Source of the DNA: a virus
Virus record (IMG/VR): IMGVR_UViG_3300044611_000147
Span: 1 to 41,407 of that record
Length of the DNA: 41,407 nucleotides
Strand: one strand, 5' to 3'
In this document: positions 6,166 through 38,111 of the stretch, one piece after another
Layout: every line of letters starts with the position of its first letter
Position numbering within the stretch: position 1 is the first letter of the stretch
Notes under the pieces: model-generated
Databases searched by the model: none
Told to the model about the DNA's origin: nothing
What the model saw: only the letters and a program-made list of their open reading frames with translations
Made by a program: the position numbers and the translations under genes

Positions 6166-6324
6166 ATGAGAATCTTAAAGAAATTTGAGGAGAACCTTGA
6201 ATATTTAGGATTTGATATGGCTCCTGTTGCTTGGGATCTAGCCCGAATTGATTTTGAAAATGATGATGAAAGATTTACTCTCCTTGAAGAGTTAACAACA
6301 AAGGGGAAGGCAATGAATGAGTAA
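6166..6324 (+). CDS. Small hypothetical acidic protein
   Basis: A 52-residue reading frame begins at the base after the preceding TAA and ends 8 nt inside the next gene. GGGAG at 6154-6158 serves as ribosome binding site. The product is acidic and helical (LKKFEENLEYLG, then DFENDDERFTLLEEL). No family is recognised. Tight packing on both sides and the conserved-looking amphipathic helices argue that it is a real gene. Confidence 0.6.
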   Translation: MRILKKFEENLEYLGFDMAPVAWDLARIDFENDDERFTLLEELTTKGKAMNE

Positions 6325-9300
6325 GTGGTCAGGCTGGGGAGACACCTTTGCAAATGAACCAGAGATTGACACGCCATCTCCTGTAAAGAAATTTGTTAAA
6401 GAACAAGCAACTGAGGTTGTTGATAAGACCAAGGCTGGAAAGATTGAAGCCAAGGCTGGTGAAGTCCTAACTAATGTTATTCAAAAAGGACAAGAAGGTA
6501 ATATTTTTACAAGAAATCTTACCAACGTTGCACTAAGTGCAATGAATCTTGCATCTAAAGTTATTGTTCCAATAACTCAAGGTGCTTCTACTTTAGCTTT
6601 AACACCACAAGCGGTTGCTCGTGGTAAAGGTCTTAATAGTTTTGCTTACGCAAAAGAGAAATCTAAAGAGATCTCTATGGGTCAAGCTGTTGCTGCACCT
6701 ATTGGTCAAGGAATTGGTAAGTTCATACCAGGAGATATTGGTCCATCATTTACTGATGAGGGCTTTGATGTCTTTAACGACCAACAAAGAAACAAAGCAT
6801 TCAAAGATGAATGGATTGGTATCTTTGCATCTGGGTCTACAGATCTAGCTCTTGCCACATTAGGAACTAAAGGTGCTAGGAATATAACTAGCGGTGCTAA
6901 GAATGCAGTAGTTGGACCAACTACAGTTCGCAATGGTGATCTAACCGCTTTTAGAGATAACCTTAAAGTTACAACTGATTGGGCTGCTCGTGCCGATGGC
7001 ACTCCGCCACCAAATGGTTTAGCGGTATTAGTGGACGATGCAGTAAAAGAAACAAACTTAACCAAGTTAGCTGCAAACCCACTCGTTACTGAAACAAATA
7101 ATCCAGTAAGAACAGCAACAATCTTATCTCGTCTTAATAACCACGATGATGTTGCGGATTATTTACTAGCAGAACGTGGTGATGCTGCAGCATTTACTAG
7201 ATTCATGCAACGTCAGCCCCTAGAGGCAGACCATATTGATAACTTTGGTATCAAAGATTATGCACCATTAAGCGACTGGGATCAGATCAAGGATGAACAC
7301 TTAACTCCAGATCTAACCAATCGCTATAAAAGAATTATTGAGGCTAAAAAAGCTAAAGATAAAACTTTTGCAAGCGCATTAGATGATTTTGCATCTATGG
7401 TTGGCGAAGGTGAGCGTGTAGATTTCGTTCCAGGCAAGTTTGCTAAATACGAACAACTACAGTTAGCCAAGAATAAGGTTAAACTTCAAGCCAAGTATGG
7501 TGATTTAAAACTATTTGGTGAAGATGGTGGTCAGGGATGGCGTTCAAAGCTATACCAGAGCAATCAATACGAACGTGGCGTTCGTGTTATTGCATATGTT
7601 GGATCAGGTCGTCCTCAAGGACACATAAATATTTCAAACCCACGCAGGTTTGAGGCTGCATCAGACCTATTATCTGACTTAAACCGTCTACAGTTCCTTC
7701 GTGGTACCGAAGGTACCCAGTTTAAGCGTAAGCAAGTTGAAAGATTCCTTGCTGCACAGACAGATACTCAACGTGCTATCGCTTTAGCCAAGATCGAAGA
7801 GAGTGTATTCATTGAACTCGGTAGAAAGTACGGAGTTAATGAGTTACTAGATGTTGCTAACCCCAATCTTGCTAAAGAGAACGCAGCAATCATTGAACAA
7901 ATTAGTAAATGGGTATCTGGCAAGACAGGAAGACGTCAGACTCTAAAGAAGTATGCGGTAGATAATGGAATGATCCCTGATGAACAGGGAACAATCAACA
8001 TTACTAACAACTTTACCTCTATCTCTAATGAAGCACAGACACTTCCAATGCTTGACTTCCGTAAACTAGAGACTGAAATCATTCTTCACGTAAATAGAGA
8101 ATTAAAAGAAGGACCAATTACACCTGGTCAAGTCAAGAGTGCTAGATTAACTCAAACAGGTATGGCTTTAAGCCAACTGTTCGATGTAGCCAACATGGTA
8201 TTTAGCAACTTAAACCTTCTGCGTATTGCATACATCCCAAAGAACTCTATCGTAGATCCTTTGGCTCGTGCATCCATGGCAACTGAAAGCCTAGAGCTAT
8301 TTCGTAATGCCATCCCAGCAGTTAAGAACGCTTTATACAATAACAGCGTCAGACTTACAAACTTATCCAAGTTTGTTCCTAACATGCCTGGCAATAAAGC
8401 CTATAAGGCTGAACAGCATGCACTAGAACAGATTCGTCAAATATCTAGAGATAAAGAGTTCCCTAAATATATCAAAGCATGGGATGAATCTAAAGTAAAA
8501 TTTGAGCAAGCGCAGAAAGAATTTGAAAAAGCCTTAGCGGTTCAAAAGAAAGCAGAGGCTGCTCTTGCAAAAGCTTCTAAAGCTAACAAGGCTAAAGCAA
8601 CCGATGCAAAACATGCAGCAGATGATTTGGCAATTGAGGCAGAAGAGAATTTTCTTTCTATACAGACTGAGTTAAATCGTAATGCTCATATTGTTCAAGG
8701 TATTTCTTCATTAATTGAAAAGCAAAGAGCTAAGGTTGCTCCAGGTATTATCGCTCGTGGCGATAAGAAACAGCAAAAGCGTTTAGGTCAAGTTGCAGAA
8801 CAATGGGAAATTGATGGTAAGACCTACACTATTAAAGGTTTACTAGATCCTAACCAACGTGGATCTCAGGCTTACATGACTGAAATCGATACCTTGGAAA
8901 ACTTCTATGCAACTGGAATGCGCTCTGAAATCAACAATCGTTTACGTGCCGAAGGTCGTAGATTCGTAAGTATTGATCGTGCAGATAGCGAAGCTTACTT
9001 TAATGCCTTAGCCCATATTGCAAATCGCCAGATTCGTAACGAACTTGAGTTACCACTTGGCATGATTATGCGTGGTGATAAAGACGGAGATGTCCTTAAT
9101 TGGATTTACCAATCTGGAAACGCAGGACGTGAATGGCGTCGCCGTATGGCAGACAGAGGATATACAACCAAGGATGAATACATTACTTGGATCAGTGAAA
9201 CTAAAGACAAGCTTCTTACAATGTATCCAAGTAAAGAAGTTAGAGATATTATTTTAGAGCGTCCAATTTCAACTGATGAAATAACCGCATTGATGAAGAA

Positions 9301-11275
9301 CCGTCCTGATCTTGCTGAAACAATTGAAGGACCAAACATCAATCTATCTGACCTTAATAAGGTAGATCGTATTGGTGCTCGAGTAGGCGGTACTACCGAT
9401 GCTGCTTGGAAGATTCTAGCGGATGCTGAAACCAAAATGGTTCGTGCTCCATTGTTTAAGAAATACTGGAGTGAAGAACTTAGAACATTAATTACTAATG
9501 CTCGTAGAACTGGTGCGGATCCATCAGATTATTTTATCAATAATCAACTTAACGATATTGCTAGACGTAAAGCTTTGGCTAGAGTAGAGCAGACACTTTA
9601 CTCATCTCGCCGTCTTACAAATGGTATGTATGCTGCTCGTTATGCAATGAGCTTTCCAGTAGCATTCTTTAACTCACAGGCTGTGGCTCTTCGCTTATTA
9701 GCGAAGAACCCTATGAATGCTTATTGGTATAGCAGTATTACCCAAGCATTAGATGAGTTTGAATCATATGAGGATAAAGAAGGAAACACTTACAAATCTA
9801 TTAAAGATGTTCCAACTGGAACACCAGTAACAGTTAAGTTCCCTATTTATAACAAGACACCAGATCAGATAAAATCCATATTGCGACCATTTGTTGATGA
9901 ACGTGGCGGTGGGCTAAGAGTAAATCCTAAGCAATTAGAGTTTATGATTGGCGATCCAAGCGTATCTTGGATTGGAAGTGGAACACTTTCCAGTCTAATC
10001 AATAATGGTTTTGGTCTTGGAACACCGTTTAATATTTACGGTGAAGAGATCGACAAGGGTCTACGTAAATTATTTGGTGATGACTTCTACGAGAACAGCG
10101 TTCTTTATGGAGGATATCCATCAGAGGGCAATACACTATTCCATACTTATGCATCAACAATGATGCCAGGATACATGCAATCATTGTTAAAGGTAATTGG
10201 TGTTGATAGAGGCGAACGTTGGTTTGATGGCGTTGCAGTAAGTTACAAGGCTGCAGTTGCTGAATGGGTTAGAAATGGTGAAGTTGGCGAACCGCCAACC
10301 TTTGACCAAGCAGCAAAGAATGAAGGATGGATGAACTTCCTCCGTGCTTCAGTTCAATTCTTTTCTCCTATATCAATTACATTTGATCCTGTAACTAGAT
10401 CAGCAATTGATTATTATGCTAAATTGGTTGAAGCCAACAAGGGTGATTACGATGCTGCAGATGCTCAGTTTAAAAAAGACTGGGGATATGATGGCTTTGT
10501 TTTACTAGGTTCAACAAGAAAGAATGTTGCTGGTCTTTCATCATCTTACGATGATGTAAAGATTCTTAGAGACAACCCAGATCTTCTAACAAAGATTGCA
10601 CGTACAAACATGAAGTACGCTGGAATGCTTTCAACTGGATATGGAAAAGAATTAACCAGTGAGTACTCCTCTGTAGTTGCATCTATCTATAAATATCTAG
10701 ATTATCCTGGTAAGTCTAAAACGCCTATCAGTAGGCAAAAGACTGAAGATGAAGTTCAAAAAGAGGTTGAATCAAACCTTGGTTGGATTGAGTTTAGTAG
10801 ATTAGAAGAGTTAAGAAACTCACGAATGTATGAATTTGGAGTAGGTTCTACCTACGACCCACGATATGAATTAAGTGGAATCCAAGATGATTACAAAGCC
10901 AGAGTTGAAGAACTTTCTGTTAAATACCCAGGCTGGGCAGATACCCGCAGAGATAACCAAAGAGAGTTTTGGACAGAACTTTTTCCTGTAGTTAAGGTCA
11001 TTGCAAGTGACATGAACTGGAGAAAGCAAGCCGACACGGAATCAAATAAATGGGCTGACATTGCTTTGTGGATAGAACAAGCTGAAGCATTTCATAAAAA
11101 ATATGAAGCTGCTGGAGCAACCGATGCTATGAGATATGACATGAGAGCATCTTTTTCACAATTCCATTTTGATTTCTTACAAAATGCATCTGATGAGTTT
11201 AGTGTATTTGCTACAAGATACTTAAACAGTATGCCTGAATTAAATCCAGATCTAGTAATGAGGAGACCTAAATAG
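6317..11275 (+). CDS. Giant putative internal virion (ejection) protein, 1652 aa
   Basis: This is the largest gene of the window. The product has no signal peptide and no catalytic motif I can identify. It is largely alpha-helical. A Lys/Ala/Glu coiled-coil stretch covers about residues 720-800, a hydrophobic Ala/Val-rich patch lies near 70-140, and a second membrane-like patch sits near residue 1110 (YAMSFPVAFFNSQAVALRLL). Size, position downstream of portal and the lack of a tape measure fit an internal core protein that is ejected with the DNA in short-tailed phages. The ATG at 6317 overlaps the preceding gene by 8 nt. The alternative is a tape-measure-like or polyvalent toxin-type protein, but the two discrete patches do not look like a tape measure's central transmembrane repeats. 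Function is inferred from context. Confidence 0.65.
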   Translation: MSKWSGWGDTFANEPEIDTPSPVKKFVKEQATEVVDKTKAGKIEAKAGEVLTNVIQKGQEGNIFTRNLTNVALSAMNLASKVIVPITQGASTLALTPQAVARGKGLNSFAYAKEKSKEISMGQAVAAPIGQGIGKFIPGDIGPSFTDEGFDVFNDQQRNKAFKDEWIGIFASGSTDLALATLGTKGARNITSGAKNAVVGPTTVRNGDLTAFRDNLKVTTDWAARADGTPPPNGLAVLVDDAVKETNLTKLAANPLVTETNNPVRTATILSRLNNHDDVADYLLAERGDAAAFTRFMQRQPLEADHIDNFGIKDYAPLSDWDQIKDEHLTPDLTNRYKRIIEAKKAKDKTFASALDDFASMVGEGERVDFVPGKFAKYEQLQLAKNKVKLQAKYGDLKLFGEDGGQGWRSKLYQSNQYERGVRVIAYVGSGRPQGHINISNPRRFEAASDLLSDLNRLQFLRGTEGTQFKRKQVERFLAAQTDTQRAIALAKIEESVFIELGRKYGVNELLDVANPNLAKENAAIIEQISKWVSGKTGRRQTLKKYAVDNGMIPDEQGTINITNNFTSISNEAQTLPMLDFRKLETEIILHVNRELKEGPITPGQVKSARLTQTGMALSQLFDVANMVFSNLNLLRIAYIPKNSIVDPLARASMATESLELFRNAIPAVKNALYNNSVRLTNLSKFVPNMPGNKAYKAEQHALEQIRQISRDKEFPKYIKAWDESKVKFEQAQKEFEKALAVQKKAEAALAKASKANKAKATDAKHAADDLAIEAEENFLSIQTELNRNAHIVQGISSLIEKQRAKVAPGIIARGDKKQQKRLGQVAEQWEIDGKTYTIKGLLDPNQRGSQAYMTEIDTLENFYATGMRSEINNRLRAEGRRFVSIDRADSEAYFNALAHIANRQIRNELELPLGMIMRGDKDGDVLNWIYQSGNAGREWRRRMADRGYTTKDEYITWISETKDKLLTMYPSKEVRDIILERPISTDEITALMKNRPDLAETIEGPNINLSDLNKVDRIGARVGGTTDAAWKILADAETKMVRAPLFKKYWSEELRTLITNARRTGADPSDYFINNQLNDIARRKALARVEQTLYSSRRLTNGMYAARYAMSFPVAFFNSQAVALRLLAKNPMNAYWYSSITQALDEFESYEDKEGNTYKSIKDVPTGTPVTVKFPIYNKTPDQIKSILRPFVDERGGGLRVNPKQLEFMIGDPSVSWIGSGTLSSLINNGFGLGTPFNIYGEEIDKGLRKLFGDDFYENSVLYGGYPSEGNTLFHTYASTMMPGYMQSLLKVIGVDRGERWFDGVAVSYKAAVAEWVRNGEVGEPPTFDQAAKNEGWMNFLRASVQFFSPISITFDPVTRSAIDYYAKLVEANKGDYDAADAQFKKDWGYDGFVLLGSTRKNVAGLSSSYDDVKILRDNPDLLTKIARTNMKYAGMLSTGYGKELTSEYSSVVASIYKYLDYPGKSKTPISRQKTEDEVQKEVESNLGWIEFSRLEELRNSRMYEFGVGSTYDPRYELSGIQDDYKARVEELSVKYPGWADTRRDNQREFWTELFPVVKVIASDMNWRKQADTESNKWADIALWIEQAEAFHKKYEAAGATDAMRYDMRASFSQFHFDFLQNASDEFSVFATRYLNSMPELNPDLVMRRPK

Positions 11276-12021
11276 TGGCTGACGAAACAGGCGTTGAATA
11301 TAATGTAAATAAAATTTACATTGAAGGTTTTACTAATAAACCTGGTGGTCGTGGTGCTTCAGTAGCCGAAGCCAAGAATTTTTTTAAAAACCTACGTGAA
11401 ACAAACTCAGGTGCATACGATGCATTAAAAAGGGCAGCAGCTGCAAGAGGTTTACCAACCGACCATAAGTCTTTAACAAAGATTATGGACGCTGCCGTTG
11501 ATTGGACACAAACAATCAACAACCCATTAAGAAGTCAAGCAATGGGTATTGACCCAGGCGCATATTTAGATTACATAAAACCTGGATCTATAGACTTTGG
11601 CGCACCTAAAGGACCTAAGTATGGAACGTCTAAACAGATTACTGAGCAGACAACCCAATACAGCCCATCTTCTGGTGCTCAAACAATCAGTGACACCATG
11701 GAGCAAGAACTTGGTCGCACCGCTTCCGCTGCTGAAATAGCAGCAGGAACAACAGGATTAAACGCTGCAGCACTAAAAGAACCTTCTAGATATGAAGGAA
11801 CTACAACCACCTCTCCTGGTGGTAAGGGTATTGCTCTTGGTCAAACTGTTACTAAGGGAACTCAAACAACTGGATTTGATCCAACCATGTTTGCTCGTAA
11901 CTTTGCTCGCAGCCAACCAGACTTTGCGGAATCATTTGCTGCTAAAAACTTTTTAAAACTAGTAAGCGGTTTATTAACAGACCCGAATGCTATTGGAGCG
12001 GTGGTGGGCGATGGCAGATAA
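11275..12021 (+). CDS. Hypothetical internal virion or structural protein
   Basis: The 248-residue product starts with GTG at 11275, overlapping the preceding stop codon by 1 nt. The N-terminal 100 residues look folded and helical (AEAKNFFKNLRE). The middle is Thr/Ser/Gly/Gln-rich and probably a flexible linker, and a short helical end follows (FARNFARSQPDFAESFAAKNF). No family is recognised. It lies between the giant protein and two LysM proteins and is presumably co-assembled with them. Confidence 0.65.
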   Translation: MADETGVEYNVNKIYIEGFTNKPGGRGASVAEAKNFFKNLRETNSGAYDALKRAAAARGLPTDHKSLTKIMDAAVDWTQTINNPLRSQAMGIDPGAYLDYIKPGSIDFGAPKGPKYGTSKQITEQTTQYSPSSGAQTISDTMEQELGRTASAAEIAAGTTGLNAAALKEPSRYEGTTTTSPGGKGIALGQTVTKGTQTTGFDPTMFARNFARSQPDFAESFAAKNFLKLVSGLLTDPNAIGAVVGDGR

Positions 12022-13264
12022 ATATACGGTTAAGTCTGGAGATACGCTTTCCAAGATTGCTGCTGCAAATAAAACAACTGTTGCTAAAATTATTGCTGCC
12101 AACCCAGCGTTGACAACAAATCCTAAATACAATGGTGGTAACACCATATTTTCTGGAACTAAACTTACCCTTCCTACAACAGTAAAAGATACCAAACCAG
12201 TAGTTAATACACCAGGTATTCCACCAGTAACTAGTGGAACAACAACCAGTTATTCTCCTGGCACCAGCACGGTTGTAGATACTGGCATCTCTTCTACAGG
12301 TGCTACCCAAATGGATACTTTATCCATGGCAACTTTGCAAGCAAAGTTTGGTATTGCTGCTGCGGTTATTGGATCGGATCAAAGTTTAAAAGATGCCTTG
12401 AATAAAATTCTTGGTCTTGATGGTAGCGGTACCATGATTACCGATCCATCTTTACAGCAACAAATAATTATGGGAACCACATGGTATAAAAACCAGACAG
12501 ACACCCAACGCAAATACACATACTTTAAAGAAACAAACCCTGGTCAGTATGCTGCAGATCTACAATTAAATGCAAGCAATATTGTTAAACAGTTTTATGG
12601 CAACGGAATAACTATCAGCTCTGCTGATGCTATTAAATATGCAGACCAAATGATGCAGCAAGCCATTATTAAAGACGGCAAGGTTATGAGATATGACCAA
12701 GACTTCTTGAACAAACTAATGGCTGACGCCATTAAGTTTGAAAAAACTAACTCTATTGACGGAAAGGTCATATATGACCTTGATGGAAAATTAGAAACAA
12801 TGGCTGATGCTTTATACCAAAGGGCTTATGACTACGGATATCCAGCCACAACATCAAACGCTGGCTTTACAAAATGGTTTGAAGCTACTGTAAAAGGTTT
12901 GGTTGCTGGAACATTGAATCCAGAAGATATTGATGACGAGCTAAAGTCTAGAGCAATGTCTTTATTTCCTGGTTTGAAAGATCCAATCATGCGTGGTCAA
13001 ACATTAAGAGATGCAGCGGATCCATACCTAAGTGCAATTGCACAAACATGGGAAGTAGATCCAGATACATTAGATCTTAATAACGACACAGTACAACAGG
13101 TTCTTAACTATACAGATGAAAAGGGAAACATTGTGCCAATGAATCTTTATGGGGCAAAGAAGACCGCTCGTAGACATTCAAACTTTGATTTCACCGAAAC
13201 AGCTAAAGAAGAAAAGACAAAGATTGCATCGACAATCCTTAAAGATCATGGGTTTCTAGCATGA
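12011..13264 (+). CDS. Virion protein with N-terminal LysM domain
   Basis: The 417-residue product starts at ATG 12011, overlapping the previous gene by 11 nt, with a G-rich Shine-Dalgarno-like stretch upstream. Residues 4-50 form a LysM domain (YTVKSGDTLSKIA, then ANPAL, PKYNGG, SGTKLTLP). A Thr/Pro/Ser linker covers about 55-95 and a long helical C-terminal body follows. LysM should bind cell-wall glycans. The same extended LysM, with the unusual NPKYxGG insert, recurs in the next gene and in degenerate form in the 4098 gene. I infer a structural protein that engages peptidoglycan during entry. No catalytic lysozyme or peptidase motif is visible in the C-terminal body. Confidence 0.75.
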   Translation: MADKYTVKSGDTLSKIAAANKTTVAKIIAANPALTTNPKYNGGNTIFSGTKLTLPTTVKDTKPVVNTPGIPPVTSGTTTSYSPGTSTVVDTGISSTGATQMDTLSMATLQAKFGIAAAVIGSDQSLKDALNKILGLDGSGTMITDPSLQQQIIMGTTWYKNQTDTQRKYTYFKETNPGQYAADLQLNASNIVKQFYGNGITISSADAIKYADQMMQQAIIKDGKVMRYDQDFLNKLMADAIKFEKTNSIDGKVIYDLDGKLETMADALYQRAYDYGYPATTSNAGFTKWFEATVKGLVAGTLNPEDIDDELKSRAMSLFPGLKDPIMRGQTLRDAADPYLSAIAQTWEVDPDTLDLNNDTVQQVLNYTDEKGNIVPMNLYGAKKTARRHSNFDFTETAKEEKTKIASTILKDHGFLA

Positions 13265-14820
13265 GCGCACAAGACGCAGCAAACTGGGCAAGAACTGTTG
13301 GTGCATTTCAAGAAGTATATAAAGCAGCAACTACTCCTGCACCTGTAGTTCCAAAGCCAGAGGTAAGTTATCGTGTTCAACCTGGTGATACATTAAGCCA
13401 GATTGCTAAAAACAATAACACAACTGTAAAAGAATTGCTTAAAATAAATCCAGCATTAACTAATAATCCTAAGTATGATGGTGGAAGAACTATCTTTTCT
13501 AATACAAAGATTGTTTTAGAACCAGCGGTTAAAGCACCAAAAGTGCAAACTACCCCAACTGCACCAACTACCCCAACGACTCCTACAGATCCAACAACCC
13601 CTACGGATCCAACAACTCCTACTACACCAACGACCCCAACGACCCCAACGACCCCAACAACTCCTACTACACCTACAACACCAACTACACCTACAACTCC
13701 TAGTAGTACTGAGTTTGTTAATCCAACATCAGCAGCAACTAATTCAATCAATGATCAACTTGCTGCATTAACAGCACAGATTGCAGCCATGCAAGCTGCA
13801 GCAGCTAAACCTGCTGCACCTACTGTTGCTGGTCAAAAGACTGTTCGTAAAACTGGTGGAGTAGTCGAAGTTTATCAAGTAATGTCTGATGGAACTCTTG
13901 GTGCAAAACTAGAAGAGTATAAAGATTTTGGTGCTCGTGATTCAGTAATGAAAATGTTTGAAAATACTGGATTAGGTCAGGCATACATTGATTCTCTTAT
14001 GCAATCAATTGATAAAGTTTACGAAGAAAACATTATGCCAACCGATGCCCAGGTTCTTAATAGTATTTATAATAGCCAGGCTTACAAGACTCGTTTTGCT
14101 GCCAATGAGGCAATTAAAAAGCGTATGGCAGATGGTAAAGGTCGTCCTGGAGACAGACTGCTAACACCATATGAGTACATTCAAACCGAAAAGGCATATG
14201 AGGAAATCCTTAGAGAAGCAGGTCTTCCTACTGGTTTCTATGACCAGCAAGAAGATTTTACTAATTTCATTGCTTTGGGTGTAAGCACGGCAGAGTTAAC
14301 AGATCGTGTAAACATAGCAAGGAATGCTTTAAATAATGCTGATCAAGGAATCAAAACAGCACTTAAAGATTTCTATGGTTTAACAGATCAAGATTTAACA
14401 GCCTATCTTCTTGATAAAGATAGAGCAATTAATGTTATTGATTCTAGATTTAAGTACACAACCGAAGAAGCCAAGAAGATGTATACATCTGCAGAGATTG
14501 GTGGAGCAGCACTACGTGCTGGTCAAATGTCTGATAAAGCTTTTGCGGAAGAAATTTATGGTGCTGGTAAAGCAGGTCAAGCAGAGTCTGCATTCCAGAC
14601 CGCTGCTGCTCAGCAAAAAGATTACCAACGCTTAATGAGTTTGTATGGAGAAACTGCTGGATCACAAGATGTTGCTCGTGAAGAGTTAGCACTTGCTGGT
14701 GGAACAGAAGTAACCATGAAGAAGAAGAGACTTGCCTCTCAAGAAAGAGCCAAGTTCCAACAAAGATCTGCAATTGACACGTCGTCTCTTGGACGCCGTG
14801 ATAAAACAACAAATATATAA
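13261..14820 (+). CDS. Virion protein with LysM domain and Thr-Thr-Pro repeat linker
   Basis: The 519-residue product overlaps the previous gene by the four bases ATGA. A short helical N-terminus is followed by a LysM domain at about 37-86 (YRVQPGDTLSQIA, PKYDGG). A rigid tandem Thr-Thr-Pro linker covers about 97-147. A long helical body rich in Ala, Gln and Glu occupies 155-519, ending with a basic segment. The layout of binding module, stiff spacer and helical body is typical of an anchored cell-wall-binding protein. It is the last gene before the 141-nt gap that precedes scaffold and capsid. It is probably part of the internal core or tail needed at infection, by inference from context. 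Confidence 0.75.
   Translation: MSAQDAANWARTVGAFQEVYKAATTPAPVVPKPEVSYRVQPGDTLSQIAKNNNTTVKELLKINPALTNNPKYDGGRTIFSNTKIVLEPAVKAPKVQTTPTAPTTPTTPTDPTTPTDPTTPTTPTTPTTPTTPTTPTTPTTPTTPTTPSSTEFVNPTSAATNSINDQLAALTAQIAAMQAAAAKPAAPTVAGQKTVRKTGGVVEVYQVMSDGTLGAKLEEYKDFGARDSVMKMFENTGLGQAYIDSLMQSIDKVYEENIMPTDAQVLNSIYNSQAYKTRFAANEAIKKRMADGKGRPGDRLLTPYEYIQTEKAYEEILREAGLPTGFYDQQEDFTNFIALGVSTAELTDRVNIARNALNNADQGIKTALKDFYGLTDQDLTAYLLDKDRAINVIDSRFKYTTEEAKKMYTSAEIGGAALRAGQMSDKAFAEEIYGAGKAGQAESAFQTAAAQQKDYQRLMSLYGETAGSQDVAREELALAGGTEVTMKKKRLASQERAKFQQRSAIDTSSLGRRDKTTNI
13549..13701 (+). repeat. Tandem Thr-Thr-Pro coding repeat
   Basis: About 17 in-frame 9-bp units encode TTP, with two TDP variants. The DNA units vary at third positions (ACC/ACA/ACG/ACT), so the peptide is better conserved than the DNA, which argues for selection on the rigid proline-rich linker. 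Such arrays commonly change copy number. Confidence 0.85.
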
Positions 14821-15452: not shown

Positions 15453-16427
15453 ATGCCTACTACACCAGCAACGTCAACTACGACATCAACGATGTCGAAT
15501 TTGATCCAGACGGCGTATGATAAGTATATCGAGTTTAACCTTCGCTCAGAACCAATGTTCCGCAAGTTTGCGGACAAGCGTCCTGTCGATGTGACAAACC
15601 CTGGTAATACTGTTGTATTCCAAGTTTACACAGATCTATCTCGTGCTACATCAGCACTAACCCAGACTGAAGATCCAGATGCAGTACAGTTGAACAACAC
15701 TAACAGAGTAAATGTTACTGTTGATGAATACGGTAACTCCGTAATTACAACTGAGCGTCTTGCTCTTGAGTCTCTATCTGCAATCGATCCAGCTGTTGCC
15801 GACATGTTGTCTTTCAACATGCGTGATTCTCTTGACAACTTAGTTTGGAGAAAACTAACAGGTCTAGCAACTGGTCGTTTCACAGGAACATCTTCAGCCA
15901 ACGAGTCAACACTTAATGGACAAGATGTATCTTCATCCACAACAGCAGCAAACATCACAGCAGCACTTGCTCGCCGTGGTGTAGCAAAGCTACGTGGTGC
16001 ATCAGTATCACCTCGTGATGGTGGCTTTTACACAGCGTTAATTCACCCAGATGTATCTTTTGACCTTCGTTCAGAAGCACAATCAAGTGGATCTGCTGTA
16101 TGGCAATTGCCTCATACCTATACAGAAGCAGGCGTAGGAAATCTATGGACTGGTGAGATCGGAATTTACGATCAGATCCGCTACATCGAAACTCCTCGTG
16201 CTGAGTCTCTATCTGGTTCAGGTGCTAACAAGGTCTACAACACAGTTATCCTAGGAAAGCAGGCTCTTCTTGAGGCTGTATCTTACGAGCCAAAGACTGT
16301 TATCGGTCCTGTTACAGATAAGTTAATGCGTTTCCGTCCAGCAGGATGGAAGGCTCTGATTGGTTGGAACATCTTCCGCCCAGAGGCACGTTACGTAATT
16401 ACAACCAAGTCAAGCATCGCTGCTTAG
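15453..16427 (+). CDS. Major capsid protein (HK97-like fold, N4-gp56-like)
   Basis: The 324-residue product forms the icosahedral shell. It follows the scaffold and has a Thr/Ser-rich N-terminal arm. An E-loop-like region follows, then a helix containing DSLDNLVWRKL, and a late beta-rich segment with ALIHPDV, a pattern seen in N4-gp56-like capsid proteins. It ends with a compact beta segment (PEARYVITTKSS). AGAAGGA upstream gives a good ribosome binding site. A strong GCAA-loop hairpin follows the stop. Capsid identity is well supported by context; the N4-gp56 subfamily is my best guess. Confidence 0.88.
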   Translation: MPTTPATSTTTSTMSNLIQTAYDKYIEFNLRSEPMFRKFADKRPVDVTNPGNTVVFQVYTDLSRATSALTQTEDPDAVQLNNTNRVNVTVDEYGNSVITTERLALESLSAIDPAVADMLSFNMRDSLDNLVWRKLTGLATGRFTGTSSANESTLNGQDVSSSTTAANITAALARRGVAKLRGASVSPRDGGFYTALIHPDVSFDLRSEAQSSGSAVWQLPHTYTEAGVGNLWTGEIGIYDQIRYIETPRAESLSGSGANKVYNTVILGKQALLEAVSYEPKTVIGPVTDKLMRFRPAGWKALIGWNIFRPEARYVITTKSSIAA

Positions 16428-27747: not shown

Positions 27748-28581
27748 ATGCGTACCTTACTGCAGGTAGTAGGGGTCGAATCTCCAGCAGGGCATGCCCT
27801 ACCTGAGATTCTCCCTCAACTCACTGGTAACCAAGTTGTATTCCGTCAGGCACAACTACACTTGGTAGCAGCACAACCAGGTGGTGGCAAAACCATGCTT
27901 GCTTTATGGTACGCAATTACATCCAAGACCCCAGCATTATATTTTTCAGCAGACTCCGACTCACGGACGATTGCCCTTCGTGCAGGTGCGATCCTAATGG
28001 ACAAGTCGGTAACTGATGTTGAAAGAATGATGGACTCGGAAGCATCTGTCCTCCTAGAAGATGCACTGGCTGATGGTGCTGCACATGTTCGATTTAGTTT
28101 TGATCCCTCTCCTTCTTTGCAAGATATTGAAGAAGAGATAGAAGCTTGGATTGAATTGCACGGTGCTCCACCCTCAGCAATTTATATTGATAACTTAATG
28201 AATGTCGCTGCAGTCAGTGACAATGAATGGACAGCATTGCGTGATGCAATGTCTGCTTTTCATTACATGGCTAGAGAATATGAATCAGCATTCATAGTTC
28301 TACATCATGTGTCTGAGAACGAAAAGATGTCTAAGCCTAACTATCCAGCACCACGAAAGGCTTTGATGGGTAAGGTGTCAGCCTTACCTGAATTAGTATT
28401 AAGTGTGGCATTAGATGCCATTGGTAATGTATATCGAGTTGCAGTTGTAAAGAATCGCCATGGTAAGGCAGATCCAACTGCAGAAAATTATGTAACTTTA
28501 TCTGTTGAACCAAGTCATATGAGTTTGTATAACTCACCTGCTGAATTACAAAGAGCAAGGACGCTTCGACAATGGCAGTAA
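27748..28581 (+). CDS. DnaB-like RecA-fold helicase ATPase
   Basis: The 277-residue product is a single RecA-type domain. Walker A lies at 42-50 (AQPGGGKTM), an acidic/Asp motif near 69-71 (DSD), Walker B at 144-149 (AIYIDN), and a motif-3 region follows at 180-188 (AFIVLHHVS). It lacks the N-terminal domain of full-length DnaB, as in several phage helicases and RepA-like proteins. It probably unwinds DNA at the fork with the primase proteins encoded downstream. It ends 10 nt inside the next gene. Confidence 0.82.
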   Translation: MRTLLQVVGVESPAGHALPEILPQLTGNQVVFRQAQLHLVAAQPGGGKTMLALWYAITSKTPALYFSADSDSRTIALRAGAILMDKSVTDVERMMDSEASVLLEDALADGAAHVRFSFDPSPSLQDIEEEIEAWIELHGAPPSAIYIDNLMNVAAVSDNEWTALRDAMSAFHYMAREYESAFIVLHHVSENEKMSKPNYPAPRKALMGKVSALPELVLSVALDAIGNVYRVAVVKNRHGKADPTAENYVTLSVEPSHMSLYNSPAELQRARTLRQWQ

Positions 28582-29093
28582 TAGAATTAACTGAAGATGA
28601 GATCATGGGTGCTCTTAGGTTTATCCACAGGGTGAGGGCAAATAAAAAGGAGTTCGATGTTACGGATCGTAAGTTTGATAAAAATAATTCCTCGTATTCC
28701 GTTAATCTTATGGGTAGGTTGGGTGAGGTGGCAGCTGCTCGGCTCCTTGGGGTACCGACGGATGAAACGATTACGCCTGGCGGTGATAACGGACACGACT
28801 TGCAGACAGTATTGGGTAAATCTATACAGGTTAAGACGTCAACATTATCGCAATTAATATTTAATGCACCAGAATTATTTATATCTGATGTGGCTGTACT
28901 TGTAAAATTTTCTGGGGATAAACAACTTCCACATGTGGATAGTTTGTTTGATGTAATTGGTTGGACAACACGAGAAAACTTCCTTGCTAATCATTACTTA
29001 CATGACTACGGTTATGGCACTCGGTTAGTAATGGATGCTAACCAACTACAACCGATAGAGGTACTCATCAATGAAATATCCAGACTTCACTAG
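28572..29093 (+). CDS. PD-(D/E)XK endonuclease-like protein
   Basis: The 173-residue product has a restriction-endonuclease-like core with E52 (GRLGEVAAARLLG), D76 (NGHDLQ) and QVK at 86-88 (IQVKTS). The surrounding helices and strands fit the fold. It overlaps the helicase and WhiB genes. Function could be DNA repair, recombination or attack on host DNA. No methylase partner is seen, so a restriction-modification role is unlikely. Confidence 0.75.
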   Translation: MAVIELTEDEIMGALRFIHRVRANKKEFDVTDRKFDKNNSSYSVNLMGRLGEVAAARLLGVPTDETITPGGDNGHDLQTVLGKSIQVKTSTLSQLIFNAPELFISDVAVLVKFSGDKQLPHVDSLFDVIGWTTRENFLANHYLHDYGYGTRLVMDANQLQPIEVLINEISRLH

Positions 29094-29346
29094 TGCAACT
29101 TGCAGAGGAATTGGTTTAGAGTTTTTCTTTCAAGAGCACAACAATGCTACAAGTAGTGAAGAACGGAAAGCTAAATCAATATGTAAGGAGTGTCCAGTAA
29201 TGCAAGCTTGTTTAGAATGGGGTCTTGCCCATGAGTCACATGGTATATGGGGTGGCACTTCTCCGAGAGAGAGAATGCAAATCAGAAAAAAACTTGGTAT
29301 AGAAGTTAAACAAATATTGGTAAGTCATTATGTCAACACCAAGTAA
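29071..29346 (+). CDS. WhiB-like Fe-S transcription regulator
   Basis: The 91-residue product has the four Fe-S cysteines of WhiB proteins (C11, C38, C41, C47 in a C-x26-C-x2-C-x5-C layout) and the GIWGG turn at 58-62. A basic helix follows (SPRERMQIRKK) that binds DNA. WhiB proteins are confined to actinobacteria and their phages, so this gene is the best host indicator. It probably binds the host sigma factor to redirect or dampen transcription, as described for mycobacteriophage TM4 WhiB. The start at 29071 overlaps the nuclease gene by 23 nt. Confidence 0.93.
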   Translation: MKYPDFTSATCRGIGLEFFFQEHNNATSSEERKAKSICKECPVMQACLEWGLAHESHGIWGGTSPRERMQIRKKLGIEVKQILVSHYVNTK

Positions 29347-30099: not shown

Positions 30100-30429
30100 A
30101 TGAATCAACCTGAATTTCTTGAAGCAGTGTTTAATCATTATGGTTTAACCTTGCCACAAGGGGAGAAGTCTATTCTCTGTCCAGTGCATGATGACTCTCG
30201 TAAATCTGCTTCAGTTAATTCAGAGAAGGGCGTCTGGGTATGTTATGCATGTCATGGCAGTGGCTCTGGTATACAGATAGTCATGGCTCGTGAGAACCTA
30301 ACATACTCAGAAGCTCGCAAGTGGGCTGATACTCACATAGGAGCAGAGAAGAGTAAAGAGTTTGCCACGCCAGTGCGTGGCAGACGACGAACAAACGGAC
30401 GGTGGACACCACCAAGATTGCGTAAGTGA
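30100..30429 (+). CDS. Primase zinc-finger (CHC2) protein
   Basis: The 109-residue product has the CHC2-type zinc site of DnaG primases: C27-PV-H30 (CPVHDDSRKSASVN) and C48-YA-C51 (WVCYACHGSGSGIQIV), followed by a helix and a basic Arg-rich tail. The TOPRIM catalytic part is a separate gene at 31158. AGAAAGGA at 30081-30088 precedes the ATG. The protein should bind template DNA and help the TOPRIM protein make RNA primers. The two parts are separated by two other genes. Confidence 0.87.
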   Translation: MNQPEFLEAVFNHYGLTLPQGEKSILCPVHDDSRKSASVNSEKGVWVCYACHGSGSGIQIVMARENLTYSEARKWADTHIGAEKSKEFATPVRGRRRTNGRWTPPRLRK

Positions 30430-30962
30430 TGACAACTATAATTGGTATACAAAGAGCAGATCATTGTGTCATTGCTGCAGACTCACGCACTACCACTGAA
30501 AAGGGTAGACCTTATTCTCATCCGATCATTACAAAGATTACCAAGCGTGGTAAGTATTTAATTGCTGGAGCTGGTACAACTATGCCATGCGATACGATTC
30601 AACATATTTGGAAACCGCCAGCACTACCACCTTCTACTAAAGATCAATATCATTTTATGATTACAGATATAGTACCAAGCATGCGTGAGTCTTTAAAAGA
30701 TAATGGTTGGGTGCCAGACGATAAGTCTGAAGATTATGAATTTTTATTTTTAATTGCGGTTAATGGAATTATCTATGAGATAGATGATACCTTCTCGGTA
30801 TTTCTTCGTGACGATGGGGTATATGGGATAGGATCTGGATCTTCATATGCAGTTGGAGCAATTCAACAAGGCGCAACATGGCGCAAGGCGTTGCAAATAG
30901 CAGCAAAGAATGATGTGTATACTGCACCTCCATTCATAATGCACAGGCAGGAGAAGAAGTAA
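30429..30962 (+). CDS. Proteasome/HslV-like Ntn hydrolase
   Basis: The 177-residue product begins Met-Thr-Thr, so removal of Met exposes an N-terminal Thr. Counting that Thr as 1, Asp lies at 17 (AADSR) and a Lys at 35 (TKITK) next to the strand leading to IAGAG, matching the Thr1/Asp17/Lys33 arrangement of proteasome beta and HslV subunits with a 2-residue shift. GIGSGSSYAVGAI resembles the HslV/proteasome GSG segment near residue 130. It begins at ATG 30429, overlapping the primase stop, and ends inside the next start. No ATPase partner is seen, so it would act alone or with host machinery. Substrate is unknown. Confidence 0.78.
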   Translation: MTTIIGIQRADHCVIAADSRTTTEKGRPYSHPIITKITKRGKYLIAGAGTTMPCDTIQHIWKPPALPPSTKDQYHFMITDIVPSMRESLKDNGWVPDDKSEDYEFLFLIAVNGIIYEIDDTFSVFLRDDGVYGIGSGSSYAVGAIQQGATWRKALQIAAKNDVYTAPPFIMHRQEKK

Positions 30963-31168
30963 TGGGAAGACTGAGTGTATATACAGGGTTTAATCGCACC
31001 TATTGCTGGGGCTTGGGGTTTGAATACCATACTATGGTGTCAGCCTATGAAGATCTGGATTCTCTTGACATCATTGAGTATGTAGATGCTCGTGTATTAA
31101 GAATAGATCTAGTAATATTTTATATTAACTTTACTTTATGGGCGAAGCAGGAGTGGGATGAGAACTAA
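30962..31168 (+). CDS. Small hypothetical protein
   Basis: The 68-residue product has beta-strand rich sequence with RIDLVIFYINFTLWAK near the end, a strand pattern seen in short actinophage proteins. It overlaps both neighbours by a few bases, so it belongs to the operon. No catalytic motif is visible. It resembles an accessory protein of the hydrolase or primase only by location. Confidence 0.6.
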   Translation: MGRLSVYTGFNRTYCWGLGFEYHTMVSAYEDLDSLDIIEYVDARVLRIDLVIFYINFTLWAKQEWDEN

Positions 31169-31802
31169 TCCAAAGCTAATTGAACTCTGGACTAGAGCAG
31201 CAAAGCAATACCACGAGAGCCTTGCTGGTTCACCAGCAGAGGCTTATCTAAAAGAGCGTGGGATTCTTGATGGTGCTAGTAAGTTCATGCTTGGATATGT
31301 ATCAGAGGTAGCACCTGGTCATGAGGATAGACTTAAGAATCACCTGTCTATTCCATACATAACCGAGGCTGGCGTAGTTGGATTTAAGTTCCGCCGTATA
31401 GATGGTGGCGACCCTAAGTACATGATACCTACTGGTCAGAAGCACCACCTATATAATGTTGATGCAATACTTAATGCCATTAACAAAGTACTAATAGTAG
31501 AAGGAGAAATAGATGCAATCAGTGCAACACTTATTGGTCATCCTGCTGTCGCTGTTGCAGGAGTTAACGCTTGGAAGCCTCACTTTGCTCGTTGCTTTGA
31601 TGGGATAGGTACAGTAGTAATCTGTACCGATAATGATGCCAAAGAAGATGGCTCAAATCCTGGGCAAGAATTGGCTAGGAGATTACAAGATGCAATACCA
31701 CAGGCTGTCCGTGTGTCGCTACCGCCTGACAGTGATGTTAATAGTATAATTTGTACCCAAGGAGCACAAGCATTGACTGACCTAGTCAATGCAATTAACT
31801 AA
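31158..31802 (+). CDS. Primase TOPRIM catalytic protein (DnaG-like)
   Basis: The 214-residue product carries a TOPRIM domain: VEGEIDA with catalytic E115 and VICTDNDAK with D158 and D160. An N-terminal part containing PAEAYLKERGI and FRRIDGG-like motifs is characteristic of phage primases. It lacks the zinc finger, which is provided by the gene at 30100. It overlaps the preceding gene by 11 nt. With the DnaB-like ATPase it would form the replication priming set. No helicase-interaction domain is evident. Confidence 0.87.
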   Translation: MRTNPKLIELWTRAAKQYHESLAGSPAEAYLKERGILDGASKFMLGYVSEVAPGHEDRLKNHLSIPYITEAGVVGFKFRRIDGGDPKYMIPTGQKHHLYNVDAILNAINKVLIVEGEIDAISATLIGHPAVAVAGVNAWKPHFARCFDGIGTVVICTDNDAKEDGSNPGQELARRLQDAIPQAVRVSLPPDSDVNSIICTQGAQALTDLVNAIN

Positions 31803-33038: not shown

Positions 33039-33211
33039 TGCCAACATTTGATTTTAAATGCAACAACTGCGAATCAGTTGTTGAACTGATCGTCACTGAC
33101 GATCCGTTTCCTAAGTGTGAGAGATGTGATATGACTCTTACTAAAGTATTTACGCCACCTGCTATTCATTTCAAAGGTGGGGGATGGGGTGGTGAACATG
33201 TCAAAAGCTAA
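33038..33211 (+). CDS. FmdB-like small zinc ribbon protein
   Basis: The 57-residue product has CNNC (residues 8-11) and CERC (29-32) as zinc ligands, and ends with an HFKGGGWGG stretch like FmdB-family regulatory ribbons. It starts at the TAATG overlap with the sigma-like gene and overlaps the glycosyltransferase start by 14 nt. Possible functions are transcription regulation or protein binding. Confidence 0.72.
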   Translation: MPTFDFKCNNCESVVELIVTDDPFPKCERCDMTLTKVFTPPAIHFKGGGWGGEHVKS

Positions 33212-33947
33212 TAGTAGCCAATATCCTGATGGCAGAATCATGCTTGGTTGGTGTGACAACGGTAATGTTGATGGCAAGTTTACCGAAGGACTTGTGTACA
33301 CAATTCTAACTAGCGGTATACCCATTGCTGGCGCAGCCAGAGTTCAAGGTAACCAGATCGGACGCCAGCGTGAGCAGTTGTTTGACATGTGGCACAAGAA
33401 GACAGACTTTGATTGGATGCTTTGGGTTGACTCAGACATTGTGCTTACCAATGAAAGCCTAAGAAAAGTTTGGGATTCAGTTCATGCTGAGGATAGACCC
33501 ATAGTAAGTGGTACTTATTTTATTTCCAAGCAGATGGAAAGTTCGATCATGATGCCACATGCTTGTCTGTTCATGGCAGATGATGGAGATGACAAATACA
33601 CAATGAGATGGATTCATCCTTTACCAAAGGATGAATTACTTAAGGTTGATTATGCTGGCTTCGGTTTCCTACTTATGCATCGATCAGTTGCCGATAAGAT
33701 GAGAGCATTCCATGGAGATACTGCTTTGTTTATGGAATCTTCTGGTGCTGTTGGAGATAAAGATACATTCATTGGTGAGGACATCCAGTTCTTCATGAAG
33801 ATGAAGGAGGCTGGGATTCCATTACATGCACACACTGGCGCAACAGTTAAACATATGAAACGATTCTCATTTGATGAGGACTATTACAAGTTGTATTGGG
33901 TCACGCACATAGCTGCAGAGGCGCATGAAAAAAAGGCGGAGGCATAA
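33198..33947 (+). CDS. GT-A family glycosyltransferase-like protein
   Basis: The 249-residue product has a GT-A style nucleotide-sugar site. The metal-binding motif DSD is at 78-80 (MLWVDSDIV), followed by the VDYAGFGFLLMHRS acceptor-side region and EDIQFFMKMKEAG near residue 195, as in family-2-like enzymes. It could modify phage DNA, virion proteins or host surface glycans. The ATG at 33198 overlaps FmdB; it is the last gene of the rightward replication module and ends within the terminator. The DUF1599-like protein upstream makes DNA base modification a possible link. Confidence 0.75.
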   Translation: MSKANSSQYPDGRIMLGWCDNGNVDGKFTEGLVYTILTSGIPIAGAARVQGNQIGRQREQLFDMWHKKTDFDWMLWVDSDIVLTNESLRKVWDSVHAEDRPIVSGTYFISKQMESSIMMPHACLFMADDGDDKYTMRWIHPLPKDELLKVDYAGFGFLLMHRSVADKMRAFHGDTALFMESSGAVGDKDTFIGEDIQFFMKMKEAGIPLHAHTGATVKHMKRFSFDEDYYKLYWVTHIAAEAHEKKAEA

Positions 33948-34820: not shown

Positions 34821-35046
34821 TTGCTGTCTCCTCTGGAGATAGAACCACAATGTCTACCATTGCTTCCTCTGCCTCCTGATGTATGTCCGACTCTATAAGT
34901 TCGGGCTGGTCTTTCTCACCTGCATAAATATGCAGGTGATCTAGAGCCTTGATTATATAGTTAGCAACACGAACGGATATGCTTGGTTGTGCATATGGCG
35001 TTGGATTATCCAGCGCATCTGCATATTTTTGTAATGGATTCTCCAT
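34813..35046 (-). CDS. Small hypothetical acidic protein
   Basis: The 77-residue product is acidic, with a helix around residues 22-40 (SVRVANYIIKALDHLHIY) and an acidic C-terminus. GAAAGGA precedes the ATG. It follows the DUF932 gene with a 1-nt overlap. Confidence 0.6.
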   Translation of the reverse strand: MENPLQKYADALDNPTPYAQPSISVRVANYIIKALDHLHIYAGEKDQPELIESDIHQEAEEAMVDIVVLSPEETANG

Positions 35047-36026
35047 TAGATTCCTTTCGTTAGTAGGTCAAGAGCTTTGCTCTTAATACGGTCAGCCGAA
35101 CCAGTGATGATGCGCTCGGCTCTAACTGAATCAGCCTTGTGACTGTAGTGATCTGCATACTCCACGATAGATTGGAACACACCGAACCTAGTTCCATTTA
35201 GTTCTTCCTGAGTACCAGTCTCACCACGATAGATTGCTTTAGCAGTAGCACGAGCCACTGTTGCTGAGTTGTACTGACGCTTCTGTCCTGCACTTAGCAG
35301 TGCATAAGGTGAGTTCTCAATGATGTTTGGTATAGACCACATCTTATTAAAGATGGCATCCACTTCTGCATCTGAGATCTTCTCGTTGATAAGTTTGTTA
35401 CCGATAAGTTCGTAGAACTTGATACCTTCATAGGTAACTGGGATGATGCGCTTGATATCTTCGATCTTGAACTCAGCATTGGTTGTGTGCTTGAGTGTGT
35501 ATGTACCAGTCTTAGCGAAGATGCCAGCAATCTGATTAGTGCAGCGTAATCTAGTTACACTAGGTGATATCTGCAGTGCAGTTGAACCATCATGGGAAGT
35601 TCTTGCTACAAGGTAGCAAGCATGTGGATCATTGGCTATCTTAACTTCGTTAGGTAGCTCGAGCACCATGTATACCTGCGCTCCACCTTTAACCTCACCA
35701 GCAAATGCATACCTTGCATCTCCTGAATCAACCAGTGCATCTAGACCTGAGAACATCTCATCATTCTGAAACACCTTGTATCTACCACCGACAGTGCCAA
35801 GCACTGACTGTGTTGCGTCCTTATTAGTACGGACAGTTGCGAATGTTGATGGTACTTCGAGGGTATTAACACCATCATTCGATACGGCTAACGCTTGTAC
35901 GTCAGCCAGTTGTACATGCCAGTCAAGACCAGCCTGTTGTGCTGCATCTCGTGCAGATGTAGCGGTGACTGCCTCACCTATGATGCTGTAAGCATTACGG
36001 CGAGAGCGGATTGTTTGTTGTGTCAT
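35046..36026 (-). CDS. DUF932 family protein
   Basis: The 326-residue product matches the DUF932 (phage/plasmid-like) family in length and in the LGTVGGRYKVFQNDEMF core motif near residue 75-90. A beta-rich centre follows, then a helical C-terminal half (SADRIKSKALDLL). The family is common in phages and plasmids and its function is unsettled. GGAGAAACACA precedes the ATG. It is the largest gene of the leftward operon. Confidence 0.85.
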   Translation of the reverse strand: MTQQTIRSRRNAYSIIGEAVTATSARDAAQQAGLDWHVQLADVQALAVSNDGVNTLEVPSTFATVRTNKDATQSVLGTVGGRYKVFQNDEMFSGLDALVDSGDARYAFAGEVKGGAQVYMVLELPNEVKIANDPHACYLVARTSHDGSTALQISPSVTRLRCTNQIAGIFAKTGTYTLKHTTNAEFKIEDIKRIIPVTYEGIKFYELIGNKLINEKISDAEVDAIFNKMWSIPNIIENSPYALLSAGQKRQYNSATVARATAKAIYRGETGTQEELNGTRFGVFQSIVEYADHYSHKADSVRAERIITGSADRIKSKALDLLTKGI

Positions 36027-37388: not shown

Positions 37389-38111
37389 TCATTTCTTGGT
37401 TGAACTGAATCGGATATCGGCTTTGCCGAATACACATAGCCCGCAGCTAACACAGGCTGACCCACTGGTAGAGATGAGTGGGATTTGCTTGGTCAATGCT
37501 GGACATTTAGCACCGACCTTGCCAGTGATGCGAAGCATTTCATCCTCCGCATTTGCGAATGTATCTGACAGCCACGCTAGTTTAGTGTCTGTCTCACGCC
37601 GAACTTGTTCGGCAATGTGTTTGTTCTCTTTGTCTGCACTGTAATACAGTGACAGATTGTCGAGACCAGAGAGTGAGTAAGCAGCAGATCGCACTCGTGT
37701 GTAGCACCAGAACTGCACGTCCTCATGCATCATGATTACTTTCTGCCATGCATACTCATATGTTTGGTTGAAGAAGTCGCCGTCCCAGTGGATGCGGAAT
37801 AACTTCGGGGCATTCCGTTTCTCACAGTCCTTGACGAAGTCATTGATCATGTCGTCAAGTAGTTCAACCATTTGGTTGATGTCAGCGTCCTTCAATAGTT
37901 GCCAGTTGTGAAGCAACACTTGCTTCACTCCCTTATATACACGCTCGAGCTTGCCTGCATAGCAGACCTTCTCGCATACTGAAGTGGCTTCAGGACAGGA
38001 GAACTGCTTGCCTGCTGGTAACCCGAAAGCATTAGCAATTGCTGGCGTCTTGCCACTTCTTGCTACTAGGTTGGTGACCTTGCGGTCTTTACTTCTAATC
38101 AGCGATAGCAT
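37389..38111 (-). CDS. Gp88-like Cys-rich protein
   Basis: The 240-residue product matches actinophage Gp88-type proteins: AFGLPAGKQFSCPEA, VCEKVCYAGK, a central segment with LFRIHWDGDFF, and a C-terminal CVSCGLCVFGKADIRF. It has at least seven conserved-looking Cys, suggestive of a metal or Fe-S centre. The function of the family is unknown. GAAAGGA precedes the ATG at 38111 and the gene follows hairpin 2. Confidence 0.8.
   Translation of the reverse strand: MLSLIRSKDRKVTNLVARSGKTPAIANAFGLPAGKQFSCPEATSVCEKVCYAGKLERVYKGVKQVLLHNWQLLKDADINQMVELLDDMINDFVKDCEKRNAPKLFRIHWDGDFFNQTYEYAWQKVIMMHEDVQFWCYTRVRSAAYSLSGLDNLSLYYSADKENKHIAEQVRRETDTKLAWLSDTFANAEDEMLRITGKVGAKCPALTKQIPLISTSGSACVSCGLCVFGKADIRFSSTKK

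Follow-up and report, generated by a model that had tools for sequence, protein, structure and literature searches.

What does a proteasome-like hydrolase gene do in a phage genome, and to which of the known proteasome homologs does its product belong? The gene in question lies in IMG/VR record IMGVR_UViG_3300044611_000147, a 41.4 kb virus contig with 43% G+C; the whole stretch (41,407 nucleotides) was analyzed and is referred to here as the window. Besides genes for terminase, portal and major head protein, the window encodes a WhiB-like regulator, a sigma-70-like factor, endonuclease VII and a split primase (Table 1). Homologues of most window genes are found in OX376640, the record of Planktophila phage LanE43AprE7 (E7 below), which belongs to the first pair of phages brought into culture on 'Ca. 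Nanopelagicales' (PMC10202952). A freshwater actinobacterium is well supported as the host; the actinobacterial host named by the first-pass annotation, made from the letters of the window, agrees with both the WhiB gene and the relatives in cultured 'Ca. Planktophila' phages. No paper that connects Nanopelagicales or Planktophila with a proteasome turned up in a literature search.

Table 1. Positions of the hydrolase gene, its key residues and other features in the window (residues numbered from Thr1 unless stated).
Feature	Position	Strand	Remark
Terminase	81-2135
Portal	2132-3907
Major head protein	15453-16427
AAA_25 gene	27748-28581		DnaB/RepA-like
WhiB-like regulator	29071-29346	+	marks actinobacterial host
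CHC2 zinc-finger DnaG-type protein, upstream half of split primase	30100-30429	+	stop overlaps start of hydrolase gene
Proteasome-like Ntn hydrolase gene (PHROG 1040)	30429-30962	+	177 aa, ATG start
Catalytic Thr1 codon	30432-30434	+	T in 56/57 sequences, S in 1
Asp17 codon	30480-30482	+	57/57 sequences
Lys35 codon (= proteasome Lys33)	30534-30536	+	56/57 sequences
Gly48 codon (= oxyanion-hole Gly47)	30573-30575	+	56/57 sequences
Clade motif CDxxQHxW, helix H1	30588-30611	+	residues 54-61 counting Met
Acidic loop NGWVPDDKSEDYE, between H2 and next strand	30702-30740	+	BPH/HslV pore-loop position
Toprim protein, other primase half	31158-31802	+	downstream of hydrolase gene

The reading frame and the Met-Thr-Thr start described in the first-pass annotation were exact, on the (+) strand and with a product of 177 aa. 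An in-frame GTG at 30426 could lengthen the ORF by one codon; since most close relatives (92-95% identity) have GTA at this position, the ATG at 30429 is the likely start. The translation opens MTTIIGIQ (MTTIIGIQRADHCVIAADSRTT). Methionine aminopeptidase typically removes a Met that precedes Thr, so the threonine would be exposed without a propeptide, and residues are numbered here for the mature protein (Met removed, Thr = 1). The PHROG 1040 'peptidase HslV family' profile matched residues 1-176 with E=5.7e-25, and a PDB sequence search returned BPH (E 0.0025) and HslV (E 0.0088). With these matches and the AlphaFold and Foldseek results given below, the hydrolase assignment is far beyond chance. 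Furthermore, the window gene compared pairwise with its close relatives gave dN/dS values of 0.023-0.091, which indicate strong purifying selection.

Thr1 is the nucleophile in the chemistry of the proteasome superfamily, as in the 20S proteasome. To see how widely the catalytic residues are kept, 57 sequences from actinophages and from phages of E. coli, Vibrio, Erythrobacter and Tenacibaculum were compared, with identities down to ~23%. Thr1, Asp17, Lys35 and Gly48 were retained in nearly all of them (Table 1); an insertion of two residues shifts the lysine to 35 from the place of Lys33 in HslV and the 20S proteasome. The Thr and Asp first seen in the window protein were thus borne out and hold in the homologues of other actinophages, as in 56-57 of all 57 sequences compared, the lysine was placed at 35, and the GSG segment matched HslV, with GIGSGSSYAVGAI aligning with IGSGGPYA. 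Because these residues are kept in nearly all sequences and dN/dS is low (0.02-0.09), the protein is likely an active enzyme. Just past the oxyanion glycine lies the motif CDxxQHxW, which is absent from E. coli HslV and whose C, D, Q and H are invariant in all 46 freshwater phage sequences. In addition, the loop at residues 92-104 carries a net negative charge in 46/46 freshwater sequences (median -3), over a length of only ~13 residues.

A single chain was then modelled with AlphaFold2 from an alignment of the 46 freshwater phage sequences (mean pLDDT 94.9, pTM 0.90). The top Foldseek match of this model was BPH (E 2.7e-10), followed by HslV and 20S chains, and 967 PDB entries matched at E<=0.001. 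VIA-align gave Z scores of 18.8 for BPH (5ovt), 18.2 for HslV, 17.3 for Anbu and 17.1 for the M. tuberculosis 20S proteasome, within a range of 16.8-18.8 over 156-168 residues for these four folds. The model is compact and HslV/BPH-like, contains helix H2 (residues 73-91) and has no connectase-type insertion. The predicted structure, whose fold the first-pass annotation had proposed to check, is thus of the alpha-beta-beta-alpha proteasome-type Ntn-hydrolase kind. Neither of the two refuting outcomes named there, a fold of another type or homologues without the Thr and Asp, was seen. That annotation's label, a proteasome/HslV-like Ntn hydrolase, stood for the fold and the residues; identity as HslV or as a 20S beta subunit did not stand against curated thresholds, and among solved folds BPH comes nearest.

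Several known classes were considered for the protein. Scores against the HslV models TIGR03692 and NF003964 (25.6 vs 157.75 and 25.7 vs 137 bits) were far below the curated cut-offs and the window record holds no HslU (PF07724/PF00004), so HslV was rejected. A 20S beta subunit was rejected likewise, with 18.7 vs 22.4 bits for Pfam PF00227 and 23 vs 224 bits for TIGR03634. HslV (ClpQ) shares with the phage protein the fold (Z ~18), the Thr1/Asp17/Lys33 chemistry and the GSG segment, but it has a short basic loop where the phage protein has a longer acidic one. PPH is also phage-borne and a group I proteasome homolog; at ~140 aa and without H2, it was set aside against 177 aa with H2. BPH (PDB 5ovs/5ovt/5ovu) is the closest solved fold; the phage protein resembles it in an acidic loop at the pore position and in a record free of unfoldase genes, and by sequence its membership in BPH is no more than possible. 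BPH is cellular, only ~20-24% identical, and has a solved ring where that of the phage protein is putative. It forms a tetradecameric double ring with an acidic pore loop and has no unfoldase (PMC5777263).

AAH shares the compact ~180 aa form. The best cellular matches were Rhizobium, Sinorhizobium and Streptomyces plasmid proteins (27-29% identity for the Rhizobium and Streptomyces hits), which is the reported distribution of AAH. In the tree, the Rhizobium and Streptomyces plasmid proteins grouped with Vibrio phage proteins, on long branches that leave this placement unsure. By distribution and anatomy, judged from its published description, AAH is the most plausible candidate class; it differs in that no actinobacteria-specific phage encoding AAH was found in the 2021 survey (Fuchs 2021, PMC8665760). 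The phage-borne homologs PPH, AAH and CPH had already been described there, with few clues to their function. The protein fits this survey of proteasome homologs, nearest to AAH/BPH, and is one more phage protease of a catalogued type. The novelty implied by the first-pass annotation therefore holds in that the enzyme is phage-encoded, but not in its being exceptional, as proteasome homologs of phages have been described as a group before. A literature search by the phrases phage-encoded proteasome and phage-encoded HslV returned no paper.

Relatives of the gene are widespread in phages. PHROG 1040, likewise found in actinophages and matched over its full length by the window protein, includes proteins of Planktophila phages E7 and F5, Arthrobacter phage Pitbull (gp77) and Microbacterium phage LeeroyJenkins (gp16) with the same residues and size. 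Identity of the window protein to these proteins of named phages is only 23-41%, and from them CDxxQHxW sets its clade apart as a motif of its own. Relatives are encoded in >100 records of a public phage collection, and Arthrobacter and Microbacterium phages carry relatives annotated 'protease'. Single-sequence and clade-profile scans of 84,980 cellular species genomes found no close relative; these scans need near-exact short patterns and so speak for close cellular relatives only. New here are the clade motif, the acidic BPH-like pore loop, the moving gene position described below, the lack of a close relative among the cellular genomes scanned, and at least 558 viral relatives, as confirmed in viral contigs by a profile scan of IMG/VR.

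The position of the gene changes between phages. In the window clade it sits between the CHC2 and Toprim primase genes, and in the window itself it shares this interval with a 68-aa ORF; the two primase ORFs of E7 directly overlap each other, and no protease gene separates them. The E7 homologue (7500-8036, GTG start) instead lies directly after the portal, and in E7 and nine other loci the gene directly follows terminase and portal. Other relatives have it after Toprim, before a PDDEXK gene or after a sigma gene, and further groups have it beside an endolysin, near RecT/exonuclease or near SSB/HNH genes. On a maximum-likelihood tree whose deep branches are long and unsure, ~17 place changes were needed, with 8 as the minimum and 40 expected by shuffling. 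The portal-adjacent place is not one clade, and well-supported branches force at least three changes. Since phages retain the gene but vary its place, a self-contained function fits better than a part in one module.

No match to the AAA_2 or AAA families (PF07724, PF00004) was found in the window while the controls were positive, so that an unfoldase partner encoded in the window itself was rejected and the earlier statement that no ATPase partner is present holds in this record. In five related phage records, matches were limited to a helicase-type AAA gene in E7/F5 and to two AAA hits in DSL-LC01 (129 kb). Because BPH is the closest characterized protein, the loop is acidic, opposite to the basic HslV pore, and the window has no unfoldase, the reading that we favour is an unfoldase-independent, self-compartmentalizing threonine protease acting inside the host; we hold it with about even confidence, ring, activity and substrate being inferred. 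Host methionine aminopeptidase would strip the Met and expose Thr1. Aided by Asp17, Lys35 and the oxyanion hole at Gly48, this threonine would cleave peptide bonds as in 20S, HslV and BPH. Identical subunits would form a ring enclosing the active sites, and this ring would need no AAA+ unfoldase, a mode of action also proposed for BPH. The acidic pore loop may admit only unfolded, short or specifically recognized polypeptides. The enzyme would then act in the infected cell as a host-takeover or protein-turnover factor rather than as a component of one assembly module. The roles named in the first-pass annotation, namely a changed host protein turnover, degradation of defence proteins and help in virion maturation, are each hypothetical. 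BPH was inactive on model substrates (PMC5777263), so the analogy supplies no substrate.

The lack of an unfoldase in the phage leaves room for one supplied by the host. Folded substrates require an unfoldase for both HslV and 20S, and Actinobacteria carry Mpa and Clp ATPases; a phage ring with no unfoldase of its own could supply the peptidase of a hybrid machine in which an AAA+ unfoldase of the host (Mpa/ARC, ClpX, ClpC) feeds it, so that targeted degradation by the host is redirected. We consider this unlikely, as an acidic loop replaces the HslV-like basic pore, relatives are found in phages of unrelated hosts, and BPH, also acidic-looped, has no known partner (PMC5777263). The protein might instead be an inactive structural or regulatory relic, in favour of which nothing was found; catalytic residues kept family-wide and strong purifying selection make this highly improbable.

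The shifting neighbourhoods bear on a further alternative, namely that the gene encodes a maturation protease of the prohead or virion, standing in for the usual capsid protease. The spot after terminase and portal, which it occupies in cultured E7 and several contigs, is the classic site of capsid maturation proteases, and no recognized maturation protease was found among the head genes of the window. However, the terminase-portal module of the window lacks the gene, which lies between primase genes, and elsewhere it adjoins endolysin, RecT or SSB genes; moreover, Microbacterium phage LeeroyJenkins has both a homologue and a separate annotated capsid maturation protease, and we regard a maturation role as improbable. 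Connectase is a ligase of the same superfamily, and by analogy the family of the phage protein could include non-proteolytic Ntn enzymes. A non-degradative job in specific processing, ligation or amide hydrolysis would suit the invariant H1 motif, which is absent from HslV and suggests a dedicated pocket, and functional diversity among proteasome homologs is expected (Fuchs 2021, PMC8665760). The anatomy is nevertheless compact like that of HslV and BPH, with no connectase-type insertion, and such a job seems to us unlikely as well.

Beyond the favoured unfoldase-independent protease, a wider reading, which we put forward as possible though doubtful, is that of a host-takeover proteasome. In this reading, freshwater actinophages would share a large family of proteasome-like proteases, viral for the most part or entirely, that need no unfoldase, are marked by CDxxQHxW and have a specific host substrate; selection for it would be so widespread that modules for replication, head, lysis and recombination have repeatedly received the gene by relocation or re-acquisition. 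What is known of phage proteasome homologs comes mainly from sequence, and the literature found assigns a function to none of them. An unfoldase-free threonine protease in host takeover, if true, would give the orphan BPH/AAH/PPH group its first biological role. Many phages that infect abundant freshwater actinobacteria have conserved the gene, and the presence of a relative in two cultured phages, E7 and F5 on Planktophila LanE-43, makes such a role testable. In addition, the clade of the window, together with the genes annotated 'protease' in Arthrobacter and Microbacterium phages, may fill the actinophage-AAH gap of the 2021 survey (PMC8665760). The clade and its context are of interest; no new principle is shown.

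Other genes of the window were also noted. Between the portal and the major head protein, three proteins (4098-5738, 11987-13264 and 13261-14820) contain LysM-like repeats, the last of them together with a long TTP repeat, and these may be virion-borne cell-wall binders. Much of the head module is filled by a 1652-aa protein of unassigned function (6317-11275, PHROG 10618), whose E7 counterpart has 1764 aa and the same place and is without a PHROG match. A glycosyltransferase at 33177-33947 (PHROG 34859, host-takeover category) is 55% identical to that of Planktophila phage E7. A leftward gene block includes a DUF932 protein (35046-36026, -) and a GP88 protein (37389-38111, -), both from families of unknown function.
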